The notes beneath the pieces were generated by a model. It had not been told where the DNA came from. It saw nothing but the letters and a program-made list of their open reading frames with translations, and did not search any database. 64,000 bases of DNA from Verrucomicrobium sp. BvORR106 (GTDB taxonomy: Bacteria; Verrucomicrobiota; Verrucomicrobiia; Verrucomicrobiales; Verrucomicrobiaceae), in contig NZ_BATR01000092.1 in NCBI RefSeq assembly GCF_000739655.1, positions 62,001-126,000 of the forward strand. Direction: 5' to 3'. Positions 44,069 to 52,399 of this stretch are shown here, piece after piece. Made by a program: the position numbers and the translations under genes. Numbering within the stretch: the stretch's first letter is position 1; each line of letters begins with the position of its first letter.

Positions 44069-45487
44069 CTACCACGGCAATGAAAACGTCTTCACCGTCG
44101 TCATGAATTTCATCGCCTCGATCACCCCCTCCTTGATCCCCAGGCCGCTGTCTTTCACGCCGCCAAACGGGGAGAGTTCAAGGCGATAACCCGGAATCTC
44201 GTTCACATTCACGGTGCCGACTTTCAGCGTCTTGACCGTCTTGATCACCGCATCCATGGAGTTCGTGACGATGGCACTGGAGAGTCCGTATGGGGTGGCG
44301 TTGGAAAACTCCAGGGCGTCATCCAGGTCCTTCACAGGGAAGATCGGTGCCAGAGGGCCGAAGCACTCGTTGGTGGCGAGGTAGGCCGACCTCGGCACAT
44401 TCGCGAGGATGGTCGGGGCCATCTGGGCACCCTGGCGGACCCCGCCGAGAAGCACGGTGGCTCCCTTGCCCGTGGCCTCCTGCAAGGCCCGTTCCAATGC
44501 GATGGCCGCAGGCTCGTCGATGACGGTGCCCACGACGGTGGATTCCTCCGCTGGATCCCCGTGAATATAGGTCGCGGCCAGCTTCACGAACCGGGCAGTG
44601 AACTCCTGGATCACCTTCTCATGCACCAGCAGTCGACGGACCGCGGTGCAGCGCTGGCCGCTGTTGCGGAAGCTGCCTTCACAGGCCAGCTTCGCGGCAA
44701 GATCAAGATCTGCGTCCTCCAGGATGATCATCGGAGAATGCCCTCCAAGTTCCAGGCAGAGCTTCTTGTAGCCGGCGGTGGCGGCGATCTTCTTGCCGAC
44801 GGACGCGCTGCCGGTGAAGGTGACCAGCTCCACGCGTTCATCTTGAATGAGCGGCGTGGTGACCTCTTCCAGCGAGCCATGCACGACGCTGAGCATCCAC
44901 CCTGGCAATCCTGCCTCGTAGAGCACTTCAGCCAGACGGGCCGCCGTGAGCGGTGTCTTCTCTGAAGGTTTGAGGATGATGGGGGCTCCCGCTGCAATGG
45001 CCGGGGCCAGCTTGTGCGCCACCTGATTGAGAGGATGGTTGAAGGGAGTGATTGCGGCTACCAGAGACAACGGTTCACGGTGCGTGAAGATCTTCCGCGC
45101 TTTGCCCGTGGGCGAGATGTCGCAGGAGAATGTCTGCCCGTCATCGCGAAGCGCCTCCATGGCGGCGAATGAGAAGACATCACAAGCACGGCCCACCTCA
45201 TACCGTGTCTCCTTCAGGCAGAGACCCGCTTCCCGGGTGATGATCTGCGCAAGCTCTTCGCGTCGGTCGTTGAGCAAGACATGGGCACGGTTCAGGATGG
45301 TCGCCCGTTCATACCGGGTGAGCGGCACATGTGGAGCCAGATGCGTGGCAATGACTTCATCGAGCTGGCTACGCGTGATCCGGGCCACGCTGCCGACCCG
45401 GCTGCCGTCCCAGGGGTTGAAGACTTCAAGACGGTCGTCCGACTGCGTGGCGACGCCCGCCAGATAAGAGGGGAGTTCGAGATTCAA
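44069..45487 (-). CDS. phnY: phosphonoacetaldehyde dehydrogenase
   Basis: A 472-residue NAD(P)-dependent aldehyde dehydrogenase. It has AAITPFNHPLNQVAHKLAPA, the cofactor motif FTGSASVGKKIA, catalytic Glu in LELGGHSP and catalytic Cys in NSGQRCTAV. The C-terminus (YRLELSPFGGVKDSGLGIKE, ending KTFSLPW) closely resembles Sinorhizobium PhnY as I recall it. It should oxidise phosphonoacetaldehyde to phosphonoacetate, the substrate of PhnA encoded upstream. It is the last gene of the minus-strand operon, 24 bases after the alcohol dehydrogenase gene. Confidence 0.88.
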   Translation of the reverse strand: MNLELPSYLAGVATQSDDRLEVFNPWDGSRVGSVARITRSQLDEVIATHLAPHVPLTRYERATILNRAHVLLNDRREELAQIITREAGLCLKETRYEVGRACDVFSFAAMEALRDDGQTFSCDISPTGKARKIFTHREPLSLVAAITPFNHPLNQVAHKLAPAIAAGAPIILKPSEKTPLTAARLAEVLYEAGLPGWMLSVVHGSLEEVTTPLIQDERVELVTFTGSASVGKKIAATAGYKKLCLELGGHSPMIILEDADLDLAAKLACEGSFRNSGQRCTAVRRLLVHEKVIQEFTARFVKLAATYIHGDPAEESTVVGTVIDEPAAIALERALQEATGKGATVLLGGVRQGAQMAPTILANVPRSAYLATNECFGPLAPIFPVKDLDDALEFSNATPYGLSSAIVTNSMDAVIKTVKTLKVGTVNVNEIPGYRLELSPFGGVKDSGLGIKEGVIEAMKFMTTVKTFSLPW

Positions 45488-45511: not shown

Positions 45512-46636
45512 TCAAGGTCTCACAGCGACACGCTGCCAGCCCCGGGATCGCGTGAGGGAGACCGCCTCCTCCAGGGAGGCAAGCGGCTGGGCCGGGCTGA
45601 CCAGCTTGTCGTAGGGCAGCTGGTGCAGGGTCGATTCGAGGAAATTGAGCCCCTCCGCCAGGTGCAGCGGGGAGTAGTTGTGCATGCCACGGATGGTGAG
45701 GCATTTGCGAATGACGGCCTCACCGGTAAGCTGGAGTACCGTCTCCGGGTGGACCATGCCCGCCCACACATACATGCCACCGGGGCGGAGCATTTGCACC
45801 CCCGGTGGGACCACGGATGCCGAGCCGGTCACCTCCACGACCAAGTCTACCCCGCCGGGGCACTCCTGTTGCATGCGCTCCCGGGAGCGGCCCCAGTTTG
45901 CATCATCACCGAGAACGGGTATACCGCCGAAGTCGGCGACGAGATCCAGCCGTTGGGGTTGGATGTCTGAGCAATAGACCTGCTGCACACCCTGGTGACG
46001 CAGCCATGCACAGGCATAGAGTCCGAGCAATCCACCGCCCTGCACCCAAGCGGAGCGACAGGGAAAGGGCAACTGGGCGAGTGCGCTGACCACAGTGGCC
46101 AGGGCACAGTTGGCCGGGGCGACCACGGCATCCGGCAGCGTGTCCGGCACCTCCAACACGGCCGTGCCGGGGCGCAGCAGGATGTGGGTCGCATAGCAGC
46201 CATTGAGGCCCGTGCCATCACTCAATGCGGCGTGACCATATTTGAAGAGGTGATCACACTTCTGGGGCAGGTGCCACGACGCACAGGCCCGGCAATGGCT
46301 GCAGCTGTCGGCCAGGCTCCAGGTCACCCGGGCACCGGGCACGATGCCCTGACGACTGCTTTCCACCACCACCCCCACTGCCTCGTGACCCAGGACGCAC
46401 GGGACCGGGGCGGAGCGACGGCCGTCGATGGTATGGAGGTCAGAGCCGCAGATGGTGGCCAGCGAGATCTCCACCAGCACCTCCCCCTCGCCCAGATGCT
46501 TGGGCAGAGCCTGCTCGTGAAGCTCGAAACTGCGGGAGGGGCCATGAAACAACTGAACGCGGGCCTTCGATGCGCGGCGAGACTTTCTTGAGCCGGCCGG
46601 GGCCGGAGAACGGGTGGGATGAAGGGTGGCACTCAT
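45512..46636 (-). CDS. zinc-binding alcohol dehydrogenase, phosphonate-associated type
   Basis: The ATG at 46636 (MSATLHPTRS) is chosen; further upstream the frame runs inside the transporter gene. The 374-residue MDR-type enzyme has the catalytic zinc site ICGSDLHTIDG and VLGHEAVGVV, a structural zinc loop CSHCRACASWHLPQKC, and the cofactor motif GGGLLGLYACAWLRHQG. It matches the group of zinc alcohol dehydrogenases known to co-occur with phosphonate catabolism genes, whose substrate is unproven. Between PhnA/transporter and PhnY, oxidation of 2-hydroxyethylphosphonate to phosphonoacetaldehyde is a natural proposal. This is inference. Confidence 0.82.
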   Translation of the reverse strand: MSATLHPTRSPAPAGSRKSRRASKARVQLFHGPSRSFELHEQALPKHLGEGEVLVEISLATICGSDLHTIDGRRSAPVPCVLGHEAVGVVVESSRQGIVPGARVTWSLADSCSHCRACASWHLPQKCDHLFKYGHAALSDGTGLNGCYATHILLRPGTAVLEVPDTLPDAVVAPANCALATVVSALAQLPFPCRSAWVQGGGLLGLYACAWLRHQGVQQVYCSDIQPQRLDLVADFGGIPVLGDDANWGRSRERMQQECPGGVDLVVEVTGSASVVPPGVQMLRPGGMYVWAGMVHPETVLQLTGEAVIRKCLTIRGMHNYSPLHLAEGLNFLESTLHQLPYDKLVSPAQPLASLEEAVSLTRSRGWQRVAVRP

Positions 46637-46661: not shown

Positions 46662-47945
46662 TCAGCGGCGGATAAGCAGGGCCAGCAGCGCGCTGCAAAC
46701 CGCGAAGACCGAGACAATCGGAAAGACGAGGGTGGTGTTTTCGACTCCCGGGATGGTGGCAAAGGGGTTGTGCTGGACCATCCAGCCGATGAAGGGCTCA
46801 CCCAGACCGGCCATGGCGTAGGCAAAACAGTTGATCACTCCCACGGCCGTGCCGGCACGGGCGCGGCCCAGCAGGTCGGGAGCCAGAGCCCAGAAGGCCG
46901 CCTGAGGTCCATAGGCAAAGAAACCGCACAGAAACAGGACGGGCAGCCCCAGCCAGTGCCCTTTGGGGAGCAGGTACATGCCCATGGCGGTGACGGCGGC
47001 CAGGCCCATGAAGGTGGCGATGATGCCGGAGCGACGGGAGCCGCAGAACCGGTCGGAGATCCAGCCTGTCGCCACGGCCCCGAGCGCCATGCCCACCGGC
47101 AGGGCGATACTGATCCATTTCCCGGCGGGGTTGCTTTTAAAATCGGGACCTAGGAAATAGACGGGCACCCAGATGAGGAGCCCGTAGCGCACGGAACTCT
47201 GGAAGCCGATGGCCAGGCCGGCGAGCATGAGCTTGGCACTGCCCAGCGCGGCCCGGTAGCGCTGCCAGGACGTTTCGCCGGTGACCGTGGGGGCGGGCGT
47301 GCCGTCCGCCTTCTTCTCGTCGGTAAAGTCCGCGAACCCGAGCTTTGCGGGCCGGTCTCGGGCCAGCAACCACACCGCCACACCCCCAAGGAGCATGAGG
47401 ATCACTGGCAGACGGAAGATCCAGCGCCAGCTCAGGTGCAGCACGTCCAGAATCAACAGGGAGGTGACGTAGGACAGCACGGAGGAGAGGCCGGCGGAGA
47501 GCAGGTAGAAACCAAAGGCCTTGCCGCGCTCATGAGTGCCAAACCAGTTCGCCACCAGACGACTGCCCGGAGCCCAGCCCATGCTCTGGGCCAGTCCGTT
47601 GGCGCTCCAGGCGATGGCCAGCGATTTGAGTCCGGTGCCAAAGCTGGTGACCCAGTTCAGTACGAATGAAAGCACCGTGCCCAGGCTCATCATCCGGCGT
47701 CCGCCGAAGCGATCGCCCAGATTGCCATTGATGGCCTGCCCTACGGCATAGGCCCAGAGCATGCCGGCGCTCACCCAGCCCAGTGTCTGCTTGTCCAGCC
47801 CGAGCTCTGCCTGAATGCCCGGAATGGCAAACCCGAAGGTCTGCCGTCCGGTGTAGTAGAAGAAATAGCAGAACATCACCGCCCCGAGCACGCGCTTTTG
47901 GGCACGGCGGAAGGCGGGGTCCTGATGAGATACAGCGGCGGCCAT
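46662..47945 (-). CDS. MFS transporter of organophosphate/phosphate antiporter type
   Basis: A 427-residue protein with 12 helices. The N-terminal FCYFFYYTGRQTFGFAIPGI, the GNLGDRFGGRRMM loop and the WAPGSRLVANWFGTHERGKA region are typical of the GlpT/UhpC group, which imports organophosphates in exchange for phosphate. A GlpT-like transporter accompanies phosphonoacetate hydrolase in Pseudomonas fluorescens 23F. It most likely imports phosphonoacetate or a related C2 phosphonate. The start is two bases after the phnA stop, so expression is coupled. Confidence 0.88.
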   Translation of the reverse strand: MAAAVSHQDPAFRRAQKRVLGAVMFCYFFYYTGRQTFGFAIPGIQAELGLDKQTLGWVSAGMLWAYAVGQAINGNLGDRFGGRRMMSLGTVLSFVLNWVTSFGTGLKSLAIAWSANGLAQSMGWAPGSRLVANWFGTHERGKAFGFYLLSAGLSSVLSYVTSLLILDVLHLSWRWIFRLPVILMLLGGVAVWLLARDRPAKLGFADFTDEKKADGTPAPTVTGETSWQRYRAALGSAKLMLAGLAIGFQSSVRYGLLIWVPVYFLGPDFKSNPAGKWISIALPVGMALGAVATGWISDRFCGSRRSGIIATFMGLAAVTAMGMYLLPKGHWLGLPVLFLCGFFAYGPQAAFWALAPDLLGRARAGTAVGVINCFAYAMAGLGEPFIGWMVQHNPFATIPGVENTTLVFPIVSVFAVCSALLALLIRR

Positions 47946-47947
47946 GG

Positions 47948-49189
47948 TCAGAGGGTGCCGTTGCAGGTGAATTCGAAAATGTCGAAGTTCCGCGGGTCCG
48001 CCTTGGCGCGGGCGGCGTGGGAGGGCTTCAGCGGATGGCTGAAGACAAAGGGCACCATTTCCTCGTACCTGCCGCCGTGGCTGCGCAGACCGCCTGCCAG
48101 GGCCTTCAGATCATGATAGGCGGGCGTGCGGCCCAGCACCACGTCCCGGCCGCTGGCCACCACGAGGTCACCCATGCGGTCCTCCGGGAGTTCGAGGAGC
48201 CTGGCCCCGATGGCCCGGGTGTGGCACTCGGTCACTCCGGTGCGGCCCAGCAGCCACTCCTGAACTACGCGGATGTCCACGCCGGCTGGCACATGCACTT
48301 GGGCAAAGGAACCGAGGGCTCCGTGATGCACGACATAGGGGTCCGTGATCGGCAGAATGACGCGGAACCCGTCGCCGAACTGCGCCTGCAGTTCGCTTTC
48401 CAGGTAGATGACATTGGGAGTTCCATCGTCCTTCTGCTTGGCGTTCATGCCGTGGTCTGCGGTTACCCCGATCACCGCACCAAACGCCACGAGGCGGCCG
48501 AGTTCGGCGTCAATGGCGGCATAGAAGTCCAGCGCCTCCTGCTCCTCCGGCGCATGCTTGTGCTGCATGTAGTCGGTGGTGGAGAGATACAGGAAGTCCG
48601 CCATGCCGCGCTCCAGGAGGGCCACGCCCGCCTTCAGCACGTACAGGCTGGCGTCACCGCTGTAGATCTCCGGCGTGGGGCCCACGATGGTTTCCACGTC
48701 GTCGATTCCATGGGTGGCTTTTACGGCCTGGGCGGCCTTTTCAGCAGAGAAGGCGGCACCGCCCTCGCTGATGAGGCCGGAGGCAAAAATGTCGCGGAGC
48801 TTTTCCTTGGCGGTCACCACGGCCACCTTGCGTCCGGCCTTCTGGGCGGCGGGGAAGATCGTCTCCACCCGCAAGAACTTGGAGGAGTTCATCATCACCT
48901 CCTCATCCTGGGCCGCATCATAGAAGAAGTTCCCGCCAATGCCGTGCACACTGGGAGGGGTCCCGGTGACGATGCTGGTGTTGTTGACGTTGGTGAAGGT
49001 GGGCATGGCTGCACGGGCGAAGCCGCGCCAACCCTGAAGGCTCATTTTGGCAAGGTGGGGCATGAGCCCGCGAACCAGGGCAGCATCGAAGTACTCGGTG
49101 GCGGAGCCGTCCAGGCACACGACCACCACGGGGCGTGGTGGCAGGGTGTAAGTGCGCTGGTTGACGGTGAAAGAGGCGGTGGAATACAT
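47948..49189 (-). CDS. phnA: phosphonoacetate hydrolase
   Basis: A 413-residue alkaline-phosphatase-superfamily enzyme. Family hallmarks are VVVCLDGSATEYFD (metal Asp), PTFTNVNNTSIVTGTPPSVH (nucleophilic Thr), YLSTTDYMQHKHAPEE, VTADHGMNAK, LPITDPYVVHHGALGSFAQV and LPEDRMGDLVV. These agree block by block with P. fluorescens PhnA. It uses two zinc ions to split phosphonoacetate into acetate and phosphate, independent of C-P lyase. It is second in the operon, 19 bases after the PhoD-like gene. Length is normal for the family. Confidence 0.95.
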   Translation of the reverse strand: MYSTASFTVNQRTYTLPPRPVVVVCLDGSATEYFDAALVRGLMPHLAKMSLQGWRGFARAAMPTFTNVNNTSIVTGTPPSVHGIGGNFFYDAAQDEEVMMNSSKFLRVETIFPAAQKAGRKVAVVTAKEKLRDIFASGLISEGGAAFSAEKAAQAVKATHGIDDVETIVGPTPEIYSGDASLYVLKAGVALLERGMADFLYLSTTDYMQHKHAPEEQEALDFYAAIDAELGRLVAFGAVIGVTADHGMNAKQKDDGTPNVIYLESELQAQFGDGFRVILPITDPYVVHHGALGSFAQVHVPAGVDIRVVQEWLLGRTGVTECHTRAIGARLLELPEDRMGDLVVASGRDVVLGRTPAYHDLKALAGGLRSHGGRYEEMVPFVFSHPLKPSHAARAKADPRNFDIFEFTCNGTL

Positions 49190-49208: not shown

Positions 49209-50540
49209 TCAGGCGGGGGTGAGATCAGCCAGAGTCAGATTGTAGGTGAAGACCCGTTCGCCATGGCGGTTGACCAACTCAGCGGAGATGCGGGCGGGGG
49301 AGACGGTGCTGTCCACCTCCATGACGAGGAAGACATGCGGCTCCACCGCGCTGCGCACCAGGTTCGGGTGGTAGGTATTGAGCTTGGGGATGACGCTGCT
49401 GTGAATGGGGGAGGCGATGAATTGCACCAGATCGTAGCCCACCGTCTTCTTCGACTTGTAACGCAGCACCCGGCTTGCGTGAATGTCGCCGCCGACGAGA
49501 ACCACGCCGGGGATCTTGTTCCTGGCGATGAAGTCCTCCAGCGCCTTTCGCTCGTGCATGTAGGTGCCCCAGTCGTCCTTCTCCCGGCTCTGCTTGTCGT
49601 CCCAGATCACCCCGCAGGCCAGGAGCTTGAAAGGGGCGGTGGAGGCCTTCAGCCCGCGCTGCAGCCACTCCCACTGGGCGGCTCCCAGCAGCGAGGGTTT
49701 GGAGGGGTCAGCATAGGACTTCTCTGTTTCCGAGAACCATCGTGTGTCCAGCAGAAACACCTCCACCGGGCCGTGGCGGAAGCTGGTGTAGATGCCTTGA
49801 TTGTCTTCGCCAAACGACCACTGTGGACGGTAGCGGCAGTACACCGTACGGCTGTTCTCCTTGCCCGCGGCACGTCCATCGCAATCATTCCCGGCAAAGT
49901 CGTGGTCGTCCCAGGTCCACCAGCAGGGGCGACTCTGAAGCAGCTTCTGGTACTCAGTCACGGCAGCAAACTCGCGGTGTCGTTTCGTCTGGATGTCGAG
50001 CTTCGTGCTGTCGATGTACGGCGTGTCCCCGATCAGGATCACTGCATCCACCTGCTCCTCTGCCATGCGGGTCCAGACGGCCCGGCTGCCGGCATCTTCT
50101 TTGGCACAAGAGCTGATGGCAAAACGCACCTTGCCGGGTTTGGCAGGATCTGGAGCCGTCTTGAACGTCTGTTCCGCAGCGTCTGCGAGGGGGGTGCCTT
50201 TCGACGTGACACGGTAGCGGTAGCTGGTCCCCGGGCGCAGTCCTTCTACCTGCCAGTGCAGGCAAAAATCGTGCTCAGCCGTCGCCTGCGCTGGTACCTT
50301 GATGGCGGCGCCACCGGTGCTGGGCGTCACCTCGAGTACATATTCACCGGGAGCCGCGACGCGCATCCAGAGGGCACTCTTGTCTGACTCGGTGTGTCCC
50401 ACGATGGGCCCCAGCACGTCAGATGAAACTGCGGGGGCGGCCGCGGCTTGGTTGAGGGCGGATGCGGCCGTGCAGGCGAGCGTTCCTGCAACGAATTGCC
50501 GACGACTAACCCTGCCAGAGGAACGAGAAGATGATTTCAT
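49209..50540 (-). CDS. PhoD-like phosphodiesterase/phosphatase with Tat signal
   Basis: A 443-residue exported metallo-phosphoesterase. The twin-arginine signal is VSRRQFVAGTLACTAASALN. An N-terminal fibronectin-like domain (VGHTESDKSALWMRV, LRPGTSYRYRV) precedes the catalytic core: FAISSCAKED, VILIGDTPYID, WWTWDDHDFAGNDCDG and LVGGDIHASRVL. PhoD enzymes use iron and calcium to cleave phosphodiesters in the periplasm. As first gene of the phosphonate operon it could release phosphonates from ester-linked polymers or lipids before uptake, which is inference. Candidate operator sites lie 34-105 bases upstream of its start. Confidence 0.9.
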   Translation of the reverse strand: MKSSSRSSGRVSRRQFVAGTLACTAASALNQAAAAPAVSSDVLGPIVGHTESDKSALWMRVAAPGEYVLEVTPSTGGAAIKVPAQATAEHDFCLHWQVEGLRPGTSYRYRVTSKGTPLADAAEQTFKTAPDPAKPGKVRFAISSCAKEDAGSRAVWTRMAEEQVDAVILIGDTPYIDSTKLDIQTKRHREFAAVTEYQKLLQSRPCWWTWDDHDFAGNDCDGRAAGKENSRTVYCRYRPQWSFGEDNQGIYTSFRHGPVEVFLLDTRWFSETEKSYADPSKPSLLGAAQWEWLQRGLKASTAPFKLLACGVIWDDKQSREKDDWGTYMHERKALEDFIARNKIPGVVLVGGDIHASRVLRYKSKKTVGYDLVQFIASPIHSSVIPKLNTYHPNLVRSAVEPHVFLVMEVDSTVSPARISAELVNRHGERVFTYNLTLADLTPA

Positions 50541-50573
50541 AGAAGGTGGCGACAGGCCAAAAAGACACTTTTG

Positions 50574-50645
50574 TTTCTAGAAAGCAACTTTTTACGCTTT
50601 TAGATCACTCGCTATTTCTTTTGGGAAACATTTCGTTCACTCAAG
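50574..50645. promoter_or_regulatory. candidate operator region upstream of phosphonate operon
   Basis: It contains the perfect palindrome TTTCTAGAAA (50574-50583), a TTTCTTTTGGGAAAC block (50615-50629), and a block GAAACATTTCGTTCAC followed by TCAAG (50625-50645). The last block recurs with three changes at 51440-51460 upstream of the XRE-cupin gene. AT-rich sequence around it also suits a promoter. Confidence 0.65.
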
Positions 50646-50737
50646 AAAACCCAGTCAGAGGGTTCGTTTGGATCGGTGCACGAGCTCCCCCAGCACACGC
50701 TGTTGGAACAGGTGCGAGAGGGTCAGAAAATGCGGAA

Positions 50738-51349
50738 CTACTTGCTGCTAAGCCGATTGGCAGCGGTCAACGCTGCCGGGTCCATGCACATGACACAGAG
50801 CACCCTCGCATCTTTGTCGGTCTCGTTGAAGACGCGGTGGTCCGTTTCTGCATCGAAATAGAGACTGTCTCCGGCGTCGAGGCGGTAGAGGTCGTTGTCG
50901 TACTCGAAAGTGACGGTACCCTCCAACACGAGGAGAAACTCCTCGCCCTCATGCTTCATGGCGAGCTGACGGCCGCCTTTGGCGGGGACGCGCACCTCGA
51001 GTGGGTCCATGGCCCGGTCCGCGCGGCGGTGGGCGAGGGATTCGTAGTAATTGTTGAGCTTGTTGCCCGCCTCGGAAGGGATGTAGTTGCGCTCGATCGG
51101 CTTGCGTTCACTGCGGCGCACGACGCTGATCCGGGGCTTCTCGTCCAATCCCTCAAGAAGCTCTGAGAGCTTGATTCCCAGCGTTTCTGTGAGTTTGGCC
51201 AGCGTGGTGAGCGTGGGGGTGACCCGGAAATTCTCCACCTTGGACAGCAGCCCTTTCGCCAGACCTGAAGACTCAGAGACCTCTTCCAGCGTCAAGCCTC
51301 GCTTTAAGCGGGCGTTTCGGATGCGTTGGGCGAGTTCTACCAAATTCAT
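50738..51349 (-). CDS. XRE-family regulator with C-terminal cupin sensor
   Basis: The ATG at 51349 (MNLVELAQRIRNARLKRG) gives 203 residues. The helix-turn-helix domain spans about residues 5-62 (LTLEEVSESSGLAKGLLSKV ... TLGIKLSELLEG), and a cupin_2 domain spans about 115-190 (HEGEEFLLVLEGTVTFEYD, YRLDAGDSLYFDAETDHRV). Such regulators bind a small ligand or metal in the cupin and act on adjacent genes. The gene is co-directional with, and 197 bases upstream of, the PhoD-PhnA-PhnY operon. It is divergent from the LamG gene. Shared palindromes in front of both the operon and this gene suggest autoregulation plus control of phosphonate use. Confidence 0.9.
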   Translation of the reverse strand: MNLVELAQRIRNARLKRGLTLEEVSESSGLAKGLLSKVENFRVTPTLTTLAKLTETLGIKLSELLEGLDEKPRISVVRRSERKPIERNYIPSEAGNKLNNYYESLAHRRADRAMDPLEVRVPAKGGRQLAMKHEGEEFLLVLEGTVTFEYDNDLYRLDAGDSLYFDAETDHRVFNETDKDARVLCVMCMDPAALTAANRLSSK

Positions 51350-51429
51350 AGTGCTGTGGCGATCCCGAAGCCTAGCACAGGGGGGCCGATGGAGCAAAGC
51401 AGGATGGCGTGAGAAAAAACGGTCTCGAC

Positions 51430-51485
51430 TTTCTCAAAAGAAACATTTTGTTTACACAAGGTCACTTTCTTTTCTTTTGAGAAAC
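51430..51485. promoter_or_regulatory. candidate operator pair in the regulator/LamG divergent region
   Basis: TTTCTCAAAAGAAAC (51430-51444) and TTTCTTTTGAGAAAC (51471-51485) contain the same 14-base site, TTTCTCAAAAGAAA, in opposite orientation, each an imperfect palindrome itself. Between them lies the block shared with the region upstream of PhoD (51440-51460). The pair is centred about 110 bases from the regulator start and 45 from the LamG start, so it could control both. Confidence 0.7.
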
Positions 51486-51502
51486 TTTAGCCTCCGACCG
51501 CA

Positions 51503-52399
51503 ATGAAACACCTGCTGTCCCTATTGTGCGCTACAGGATTGCTGGCTGGCCTGGTCCAGCCCGCTCGTGGCTCCGTCTCCCTCCTGGACGGGTTGAGCTT
51601 CTACCTCGATTTCGAGGGCAGTGCTCCAGTGGACACCTCCGGGAACAATGTGGTGGTGACCAATTCGGGGGTGACCTCCAACACACTGACCGGGCACTAC
51701 GGCGCAATAGCCGGAGTCGCTGGGAACGCCGGGTACTTCAACCGGGCGGACAAGGACTGGCTTCAAATCGGCCTCGGCTATGGAAAGCTGGCGGCGGATC
51801 CTGCGCCACAACCACTGGCCTACAGCTTCACCATCAGCGCCTGGTACTACCTGCAGCCTGAAAGCGCCCCCACGGACCGTCTCTTCCTTTATGAGGGCGA
51901 TGTGGACTATGATCTGTCGTTCGGCATTCGCGGGGATCTGGCCTCGTCCAATGGATCCTATGTCGGCACCGCCTACAACCCGGGGAAGGCCAACTACGAT
52001 GTCTCAAACGCGGCTTACTATGACTCGACGACCCATGAGGGCGCCTGGCAGCAGGTCGTGGAAACCTTCTCTTCTGACGGCACCACCGTCACAAAGAAGA
52101 TCTACCTCAATGGGGAACTGGTCGGCACCACGTCCACGATGGCCCAGGGTTCGCTCTACTCTCCTGCGATCAACTTGGGGACATTTCGCGACAACAACGG
52201 TCGCTTCTGGGACGGTTTCATGGACGAGGTTGGCCTCTGGAACCGCGCTCTGACCGACGTCGAGATCTCCGACCTCTACGACCTGACCTACATCGACGGA
52301 CTTTCAGTGACCAGCCTTGCTCCCGAGCCCTCAAGAGCTGTCCTGCTGATGCTCGGCATCGTGGGGCTCCACCTGCGTCGATCCCGACGCAGAGCCTAG
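51503..52399 (+). CDS. LamG-domain surface protein with PEP-CTERM-type tail
   Basis: A 298-residue exported protein. A signal peptide (MKHLLSLLCATGLLAGLVQP) precedes a concanavalin-A-like LamG domain: GLSFYLDFEGSAPVDTSGNN, YSFTISAWYYL, YLNGELVGTTS and GFMDEVGLWNRALTDVEIS. The end is APEPSRAVLLMLGIVGLHLR (P-E-P, hydrophobic helix, RRSRRRA), the PEP-CTERM arrangement processed by an exosortase. It would be a secreted glycan-binding or structural protein. The pseudopilin cassette starts 47 bases downstream, with only a short hairpin (TTGGCTCCGAGCCAA, 52404-52418) between. Confidence 0.85.
   Translation: MKHLLSLLCATGLLAGLVQPARGSVSLLDGLSFYLDFEGSAPVDTSGNNVVVTNSGVTSNTLTGHYGAIAGVAGNAGYFNRADKDWLQIGLGYGKLAADPAPQPLAYSFTISAWYYLQPESAPTDRLFLYEGDVDYDLSFGIRGDLASSNGSYVGTAYNPGKANYDVSNAAYYDSTTHEGAWQQVVETFSSDGTTVTKKIYLNGELVGTTSTMAQGSLYSPAINLGTFRDNNGRFWDGFMDEVGLWNRALTDVEISDLYDLTYIDGLSVTSLAPEPSRAVLLMLGIVGLHLRRSRRRA

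Follow-up and report, generated by a model that had tools for sequence, protein, structure and literature searches.

Paired palindromic arrays beside an XRE-cupin gene are predicted operators of a local phosphonate regulon in Verrucomicrobium sp. BvORR106

Which protein reads the AT-rich palindromes on both sides of an XRE-cupin regulator gene in Verrucomicrobium sp. BvORR106, and which genes do they control? We analyzed a stretch of 64,000 nucleotides (contig NZ_BATR01000092.1, positions 62,001 to 126,000 of the forward strand), hereafter called the window. The regulator gene (xre) lies between an operon for phosphonate use and a divergent lamG gene, with the following features.

44069..45487, minus strand: phnY-like phosphonoacetaldehyde dehydrogenase (TIGR03250, 618 bits against a cut-off of 636)
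45512..46636, minus strand: zinc alcohol dehydrogenase (ADH), HpnZ-like (TIGR03366, 311 bits against a cut-off of 328; start set at the ATG of MSATLHP)
46662..47945, minus strand: MFS transporter, like organophosphate:phosphate antiporters of the PgtP/GlpT kind (TIGR00881 (PgtP), 189 bits, below cut-off)
47948..49189, minus strand: phnA, phosphonoacetate hydrolase (TIGR02335, 474 bits, above cut-off)
49209..50540, minus strand: PhoD-like phosphatase/phosphodiesterase, first gene of the operon (Pfam PhoD above cut-off; NCBIfam PhoD equivalog 58.5 bits, far under the 1000-bit cut-off)
50738..51349, minus strand: XRE-cupin regulator of 203 aa, predicted to bind both arrays (Pfam HTH_3 42 bits, cut-off 23; Cupin_2 65 bits, cut-off 27)
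51503..52399, plus strand: LamG-domain protein, divergent from xre (Pfam Laminin_G_3)

The family name of TIGR03366 is 'putative phosphonate catabolism associated alcohol dehydrogenase'. We propose, with a probability of roughly 0.85, that the AT-rich islands are operators through which the XRE-cupin protein, as a local and autoregulating repressor, controls phoD-phnA-MFS-ADH-phnY and the divergent lamG/xre pair. The computed support consists of the sites themselves, their conservation, their spacing, the rarity of the pair and the co-variation with the recognition helix; binding, co-operativity, repression and a ligand are inferred.

The initial annotation had described a block shared by the two promoters and palindromes of the type TTTCT...AGAAA. 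Both block copies were correct to the base, at 50627-50645 (AACATTTCGTTCACTCAAG) and 51442-51460 (AACATTTTGTTTACACAAG), that is, 87-105 bp 5' of the phoD-like ATG (50540) and 93-111 bp 5' of the xre ATG (51349). The palindromes were likewise found at 50574 (TTTCTAGAAA), 50615 (TTTCTTTTGGGAAA, imperfect), 51430 (TTTCTCAAAAGAAA) and 51471 (TTTCTTTTGAGAAA), within islands having a GC content of 0.36-0.44 (50500-50649) and 0.40 (51400-51499), against about 0.55-0.76 outside, in 100-bp windows. Although block and palindromes are both present as described, they are not two motifs, but rather neighboring sites of one 20-21-bp lattice. Judged from the sequence, the four palindromes and the two blocks are a single type of element, a putative 16-bp operator resembling GTTTCYTNNNAGAAAC. 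The sites are given below with scores from the 16-bp model V16 (trained without this genus) or from model P17; G001 and G003 are congeners.

50573..50588, minus strand: predicted strong operator site, phoD promoter (GTTGCTTTCTAGAAAC on the minus strand; 16.1 bits, V16; identical in G001 and G003)
50614..50629, minus strand: predicted strong operator site, phoD promoter (GTTTCCCAAAAGAAAT on the minus strand; 16.5 bits, V16; identical in congeners)
50635..50650, minus strand: predicted weak site, phoD promoter (GTTTTCTTGAGTGAAC on the minus strand; 10.2 bits; not conserved in G001/G003)
51429..51444, minus strand: predicted strong operator site, xre-lamG intergenic region (GTTTCTTTTGAGAAAG on the minus strand; 15.4 bits; identical in G003, one base off in G001)
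51450..51466, unstranded: predicted weak middle site, xre-lamG intergenic region (GTTTACACAAGGTCACT; 7.1 bits, P17; its GTTTACACAAG part the same in both congeners)
51470..51485, unstranded: predicted strong operator site, xre-lamG intergenic region (TTTTCTTTTGAGAAAC; 20.3 bits, the top V16 score in the window; congeners differ at the outermost base alone)
50627..50645, unstranded: block on the phoD side, composed of the end of a strong site, a 5-bp spacer and the start of the weak site; not conserved in congeners
51442..51460, unstranded: block on the xre side, composed of the end of a strong site, a spacer (about 5 bp) and the start of the weak middle site

The strong sites are exactly 41 bp (2 x 20.5) apart in both promoters (50573/50614 and 51429/51470), and the weak sites at 50635 and 51450 stand 20-21 bp from a strong one. 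All four strong sites adjoin the regulator's own gene. Site 50573 begins 32 bp ahead of the phoD-like start codon. The second array lies 79 bp ahead of the xre start and 17 bp ahead of the divergent lamG, and may therefore act on both lamG and xre.

Motifs were sought among relatives with a palindromic EM finder trained on up to 300 bp 5' of regulator and phosphonate genes, with the own genus excluded. The relatives were 57 regulator loci from named genomes, plus more from further relatives, and were split by record titles into Verrucomicrobia-type and Planctomycetes-type loci (a few deviate: L051 is Luteitalea, and L059 is titled only 'bacterium'). The stretches L004-L012 were exchanged for the longer L090-L098. 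Training excluded the own-genus loci L001-L003, L031, L088 and L089, as well as L041, which has two regulator copies, and L043, whose upstream sequence is the same as that of L093. Sequence came from 61 of the 63 loci, giving 46 + 46 sequences; L061 and L078 gave none once near-identical upstreams had been removed. In L041 (4405-5537), the two copies of the regulator gene are in tandem.

Verrucomicrobia-type loci yielded a 17-bp motif, gTTtccTtnaAggaAAc, and Planctomycetes-type loci yielded GTTGAcTnanAgTCAAC. Their log-likelihoods were 95.8 and 136.0, against 35-50 and 38-54, respectively, in eight shuffles each. The 16-bp form, gTTtCTtnnaAGaAAc, fits the relatives less well (74.9 against 95.8), and the 16-bp model was picked because the window sites are 16 bp long. 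With V16, five matches of at least 15 bits were found in the 64 kb; four are the palindromes described here, and the fifth (59888) lies at the start of a coding gene. The 17-bp model placed the coding site 59888 first and the four window sites at ranks 2 to 5; with the Planctomycetes model, the four were not top-ranked. In the congener loci L088 and L089, the same four sites were the sole matches of at least 14 bits in 16-17 kb. Although the 61 loci with upstream sequence had trained the motif, only 35 of them carried a site of at least 12 bits, and none was found in verrucomicrobial loci such as L032, L034, L036 and L042.

Since the islands are AT-rich within GC-rich DNA, functionless low-complexity leftovers could in principle look like such sites. 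Dinucleotide shuffles of the two intergenic regions gave four sites in 0 of 1000 runs (means of 0.05 and 0.04 per region), and shuffles of the AT-rich cores alone did so in 0 of 2000 (mean 0.22). Moreover, congeners keep the strong sites with few or no changes although parts of the flanks have diverged, and the motif recurs in other genera. A coincidence of base composition is thus hardly credible.

Conservation among congeners differed along the two regions. Upstream of phoD, three congeners showed near identity at both strong sites and from AAAAGCG through to the start codon, with differences at a few of the bases separating the strong sites; the outer part, with the block and the weak site 50635, was not conserved in G001/G003. 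The block common to both promoters, as the initial annotation had it, is real in the window, but its phoD-side copy is not kept in two congeners. Upstream of xre, the congeners retained both strong sites, apart from a single-base difference in G001 and a change at the outermost position of the site facing lamG; within the middle site, the GTTTACACAAG part was retained.

How far does the regulon extend? A genome-wide motif scan had been suggested for defining it, and we rejected the single motif for this use: GTTTCYTNNNAGAAAC with at most two mismatches barely exceeded its reversed control (110+123 genome matches against 89+104). A pattern for the 41-bp pair, taken from the own sites, matched with no more than one mismatch at these two promoters alone, in the own genome as in G001 and G003. 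With three mismatches, 1, 2 and 2 further places appeared in these genomes, against 0, 0 and 2 for the reversed control. A 21-bp block pattern, derived from its two copies and allowing up to three mismatches, occurred at two places only in the 8.69-Mb genome, both of them here. Thus, the lone palindrome is common, and the specific feature is the paired arrangement. The restriction of the pair to two promoters makes the regulon appear local, covering the phoD operon and the xre/lamG region.

Spacing was also enriched in relatives. Around the 39 of 92 upstream sequences whose best site reached at least 13 bits, a second site (>8 bits) at 20-21.5 bp was found in ten, three of them closely related (L095, L096, L097), so that the count is partly phylogenetic; with shuffled flanks, 100 runs averaged 0.34 such cases and never exceeded 2 of 39. 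Ten own-genome stretches around other close matches, among the matches listed, held no second site >9 bits at 20-21 or 41 bp, and in eight of them the close match was inside a long open frame. The other two lie between genes. One (L104, G000:C98:192459), a strong single operator-like site scoring 17.2 bits, has a PAP2/PMT_2 gene on one side and stands ahead of a TonB-dependent receptor on the other; G001 has this stretch at 98% identity, and no counterpart was found in G003. The other (L110, G000:C159:98986) is a single site of 14.2 bits whose flanking genes have no Pfam match. Both were left out of the regulon.

We then consider whether the neighboring regulator is the protein that reads these sites. 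In its structure model (mean pLDDT 86.8), five N-terminal helices are followed by strands, and the recognition helix comprises residues 32-39. The nearest named relative in the searches is the Verrucomicrobium sp. BvORR034 regulator, 98% identical. Among regulators of the family, [AG]KG[LI] at residues 31-34 went with GTTT half-sites (16 T:3 G) and T[RK]S[WV] with GTTG half-sites (6 T:38 G; Fisher 1.3e-7), counts that omit half-sites with a fourth base other than T or G and are not independent but partly phylogenetic (L094-L097, for example, are mutual relatives). Counted by loci with a clear majority, the association was 7:1 against 0:16 (Fisher 2e-5). In genus g8, G021 and G023 have the KG type with GTTTCTTGAAAGAAAC, and G049 and G024 have the RS type with GTTGCC/GTTGAC sites; both regulator types accompany the same phnA-MFS-ADH-phnY genes with matching operators (L090, L091 vs L094, L097). 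This switch within one genus argues against mere phylogeny as the source of the link. The correspondence of residues 31-34 with base 4 is of interest as a naturally occurring exchange of specificity around one and the same operon.

These results bear on a quite improbable alternative, namely that some other DNA-binding protein recognizes these sites, PhoB at a Pho box or a different XRE protein for instance, and that the neighboring regulator is a bystander. Lone palindromes of this kind are indeed common in the genome; nevertheless, the operator type tracks the recognition helix of this regulator family, and the pair with at most one mismatch is confined to these two promoters. The Pho box consensus consists of CTGTCAT direct repeats with an 11-bp period. 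Matches with up to three mismatches numbered 6 in the window against 4.6 by chance, and none was near the arrays (50000-52000). The proposal that the sites are operators of the protein encoded between them is thus supported by the recurrence of the motif in other genera, the helix-operator co-variation and the rarity of the pair, with the qualification that the second array may also serve lamG.

Under the repressor model, each 16-bp inverted repeat would bind one regulator dimer, and dimers would be placed every 20-21 bp, or two helix turns, on the same DNA face, a spacing at which they could bind side by side. As long as inducer is absent, the regulator would keep phoD-phnA-MFS-ADH-phnY, lamG and its own gene repressed; a pathway phosphonate in the cupin would release it, the first guesses being 2-hydroxyethylphosphonate or phosphonoacetaldehyde. 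No sigma-70-like promoter was found at either array. In planctomycete-type relatives, a -10 box overlapped a site in 3 of 18 cases, no significant excess over the null mean of 1.35 (P 0.15). We therefore discarded promoter overlap as proof of repression, including an apparent -35 overlap in four of these loci.

The same missing promoter and non-significant overlap would also suit a regulator that binds these arrays as an activator or with a dual role, and the 79 bp between the second array and the xre start is an activator-like distance. We regard this as unlikely: site 50573 on the phoD side starts 32 bp ahead of that gene's start codon, lamG begins 17 bp beyond the end of the site on its side, and the Pseudomonas XRE-cupins characterized in PMC7901475 (regulons of seven) all inhibit, according to its accessible text.

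A further reading, in which the palindromes act as RNA hairpins (an attenuator, a terminator or a regulatory RNA), is very improbable. The xre-side array can form a long RNA hairpin, more stable than most shuffled sequences for either strand (z -2.7 and -3.5) and a by-product of two palindromes that read alike both ways; the phoD-side array folds no better than shuffles (z -0.7 and 0.0). Neither a terminator-like site (50400-51600) nor, at E-values up to 1, an Rfam match (50000-52000) was found.

We return to the repressor model and its targets. The lamG gene is probably a second target. Of 23 Verrucomicrobia-type loci, 9 have a relative of it close to the regulator, against 0 of 34 others; with 29 LamG matches over the 8.69 Mb of the own genome, this is more than the own-genome density would predict. 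A divergent lamG adjacent to the regulator, with operator-like sites between, was found in L031 (own genus), L047 and L068. The latter two belong to distant genera and share the order divergent lamG, site, xre.

The association with phosphonate genes was examined across loci and genomes. Among 96 genomes (own and relatives), PhnA above cut-off was found in 14, the regulator (at least 50% identity) in 12 and both in 11; G062 has the regulator without PhnA, and G006, G061 and G073 have PhnA without the regulator. For the comparison of neighboring ORFs, 129 of 136 were used, and the seven longest were dropped. Relatives of PhnA (at least 45% identity), PhnY or the MFS transporter (at least 50%) lay within the flank in 25 of the 57 loci, and a PhnX cluster member in a further eight (one checked, 332 bits); the remaining 24 had neither within the flank. 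An iron alcohol dehydrogenase related to PsrA was present in ten loci, the single one checked scoring below cut-off. In Planctomycetes-type loci (L053, L063, L065 and others), the regulator stands beside PhnX and an iron alcohol dehydrogenase (with PhoD-like in some), which replace PhnY/PhnA. The pattern suggests one regulator family with two end routes, PhnY/PhnA or PhnX.

Which phosphonate enters this pathway? PhnW above cut-off was present in only one of the 11 genomes with both regulator and PhnA (G069), and 2-aminoethylphosphonate (AEP) was therefore judged the less likely substrate; the own genome has no PhnW above cut-off. An alcohol dehydrogenase together with a phosphonoacetaldehyde-using enzyme, without PhnW, would fit 2-hydroxyethylphosphonate better than 2-aminoethylphosphonate. 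In the accessible part of PMC12366243, oxidation of 2-hydroxyethylphosphonate to phosphonoacetaldehyde is weighed as a less likely role for another enzyme.

The sensor domain was compared with known structures. A profile of the regulator (43 orthologs, A4), searched against PDB sequences with hmmsearch, matched HppE with an E-value of 3e-11 over positions 7-180 of 186; it also matched the V. cholerae HTH_3 regulator 1y9q (1e-11) and the SinR HTH (7e-12), and, weakly and partially, MPnS (1.7e-4) and Psf4 (4.5e-4). A control XRE-cupin family from the same bacterial family (A5) gave 5e-19 for 1y9q and only 0.005, partial, for HppE, a contrast that is only indicative with a control profile so small and uneven (15 sequences; L013 about 26% identical to the rest). 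Residues H133, E137 and H171 were at least 90% conserved in the 43 orthologs, and R87 was invariant. The conserved Y102, H133 and E137 align with the Tyr, His and Glu of HppE, and R87, by our reading, falls two columns off its Arg. We take the two-His-one-Glu of HppE to be its metal site, with H133 and E137 as the aligned residues in the regulator; the Asn presumably near the phosphonate in HppE is aligned with an Ala. In the fold search, HppE, HEPD, MPnS and Psf4 ranked after 1y9q. HppE is not singled out by fold alone: generic cupins had the same Z, and the HppE alignment covered both domains only with an rmsd as large as 10.8.

The full-length profile match to HppE makes a phosphonate ligand, perhaps 2-hydroxyethylphosphonate, plausible for the cupin, and there are hints of common descent of phosphonate sensors and phosphonate enzymes. 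We put forward, tentatively and as the more doubtful part of this work, that Verrucomicrobia and Planctomycetes possess a family of phosphonate-sensing XRE-cupin repressors whose sensor, kin to HppE/MPnS, may hold 2-hydroxyethylphosphonate in a metal site, and which would govern an undescribed 2-hydroxyethylphosphonate route from operators phased at two helix turns. If this is true, the PhoD-like and LamG proteins might free 2-hydroxyethylphosphonate from polysaccharide esters; the alcohol dehydrogenase would convert it to phosphonoacetaldehyde, which would pass to PhnY plus PhnA or to PhnX, without PhnW.

Several known proteins resemble the window regulator in part. HppE, MPnS/HEPD and Psf4 also combine an HTH-like domain with a cupin but are enzymes acting on hydroxyalkylphosphonates, whereas a regulator would not be expected to turn a phosphonate over. 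Being related to HppE/MPnS points to a ligand for the regulator and connects sensors of phosphonates with enzymes that act on them. The regulator 1y9q is likewise XRE plus cupin and is its best Foldseek match, with 21% identity in the fold alignment, but is closer to family A5 (5e-19) than to the family of the window regulator (1e-11). PhnF/GntR regulators control C-P lyase operons; they too exert local control of phosphonate use, but differ in both protein family and enzyme system. A GntR regulator and PhnF are mentioned in PMC9381506 and PMC10574752, as far as their accessible text goes.

Regulators of hydrolytic phosphonate pathways, in the part of the review PMC10574752 that is accessible, are LysR proteins (PhnR, AepR, PalR) and two-component systems; the word 'cupin' is absent from its main text. 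Like the window regulator, PhnR, AepR and PalR are encoded beside phnA/phnY or phnX and are expected to respond to substrate (PMC10574752, same part). They are LysR proteins, whereas the window regulator is an XRE-cupin, with no LysR family among its 7 Pfam and 9 NCBIfam matches. Among the matches listed from open-licence papers, no title or beginning of an abstract describes an XRE-cupin regulator of phnA/phnX clusters, an absence that is weak evidence; the one match for XRE, cupin and phosphonate together concerned a LysR regulator of another pathway.

The closest models are the XRE-cupins of Pseudomonas. In the accessible text of PMC7901475, the characterized members are local inhibitors of neighboring genes, their palindromic sites are taken as dimer-bound, and they are thought to leave DNA once the cupin binds a pathway precursor; we applied this model to the window regulator by analogy. 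They differ from it in targets and sequence, and the terms 'tandem' and 'bp apart' are absent from the main text of that source, which thus leaves tandem sites of fixed spacing unmentioned. ErfA, PsdR and PauR, as described there, share with the window regulator the combination of HTH_3 and Cupin_2, a gene beside its targets, palindromic sites and usually few targets. For PsdR, according to the same text, two binding sites surround its own gene, as predicted for the window regulator. The regulon proposed here for phosphonate use, in Verrucomicrobia as in Planctomycetes, is both concrete and testable.
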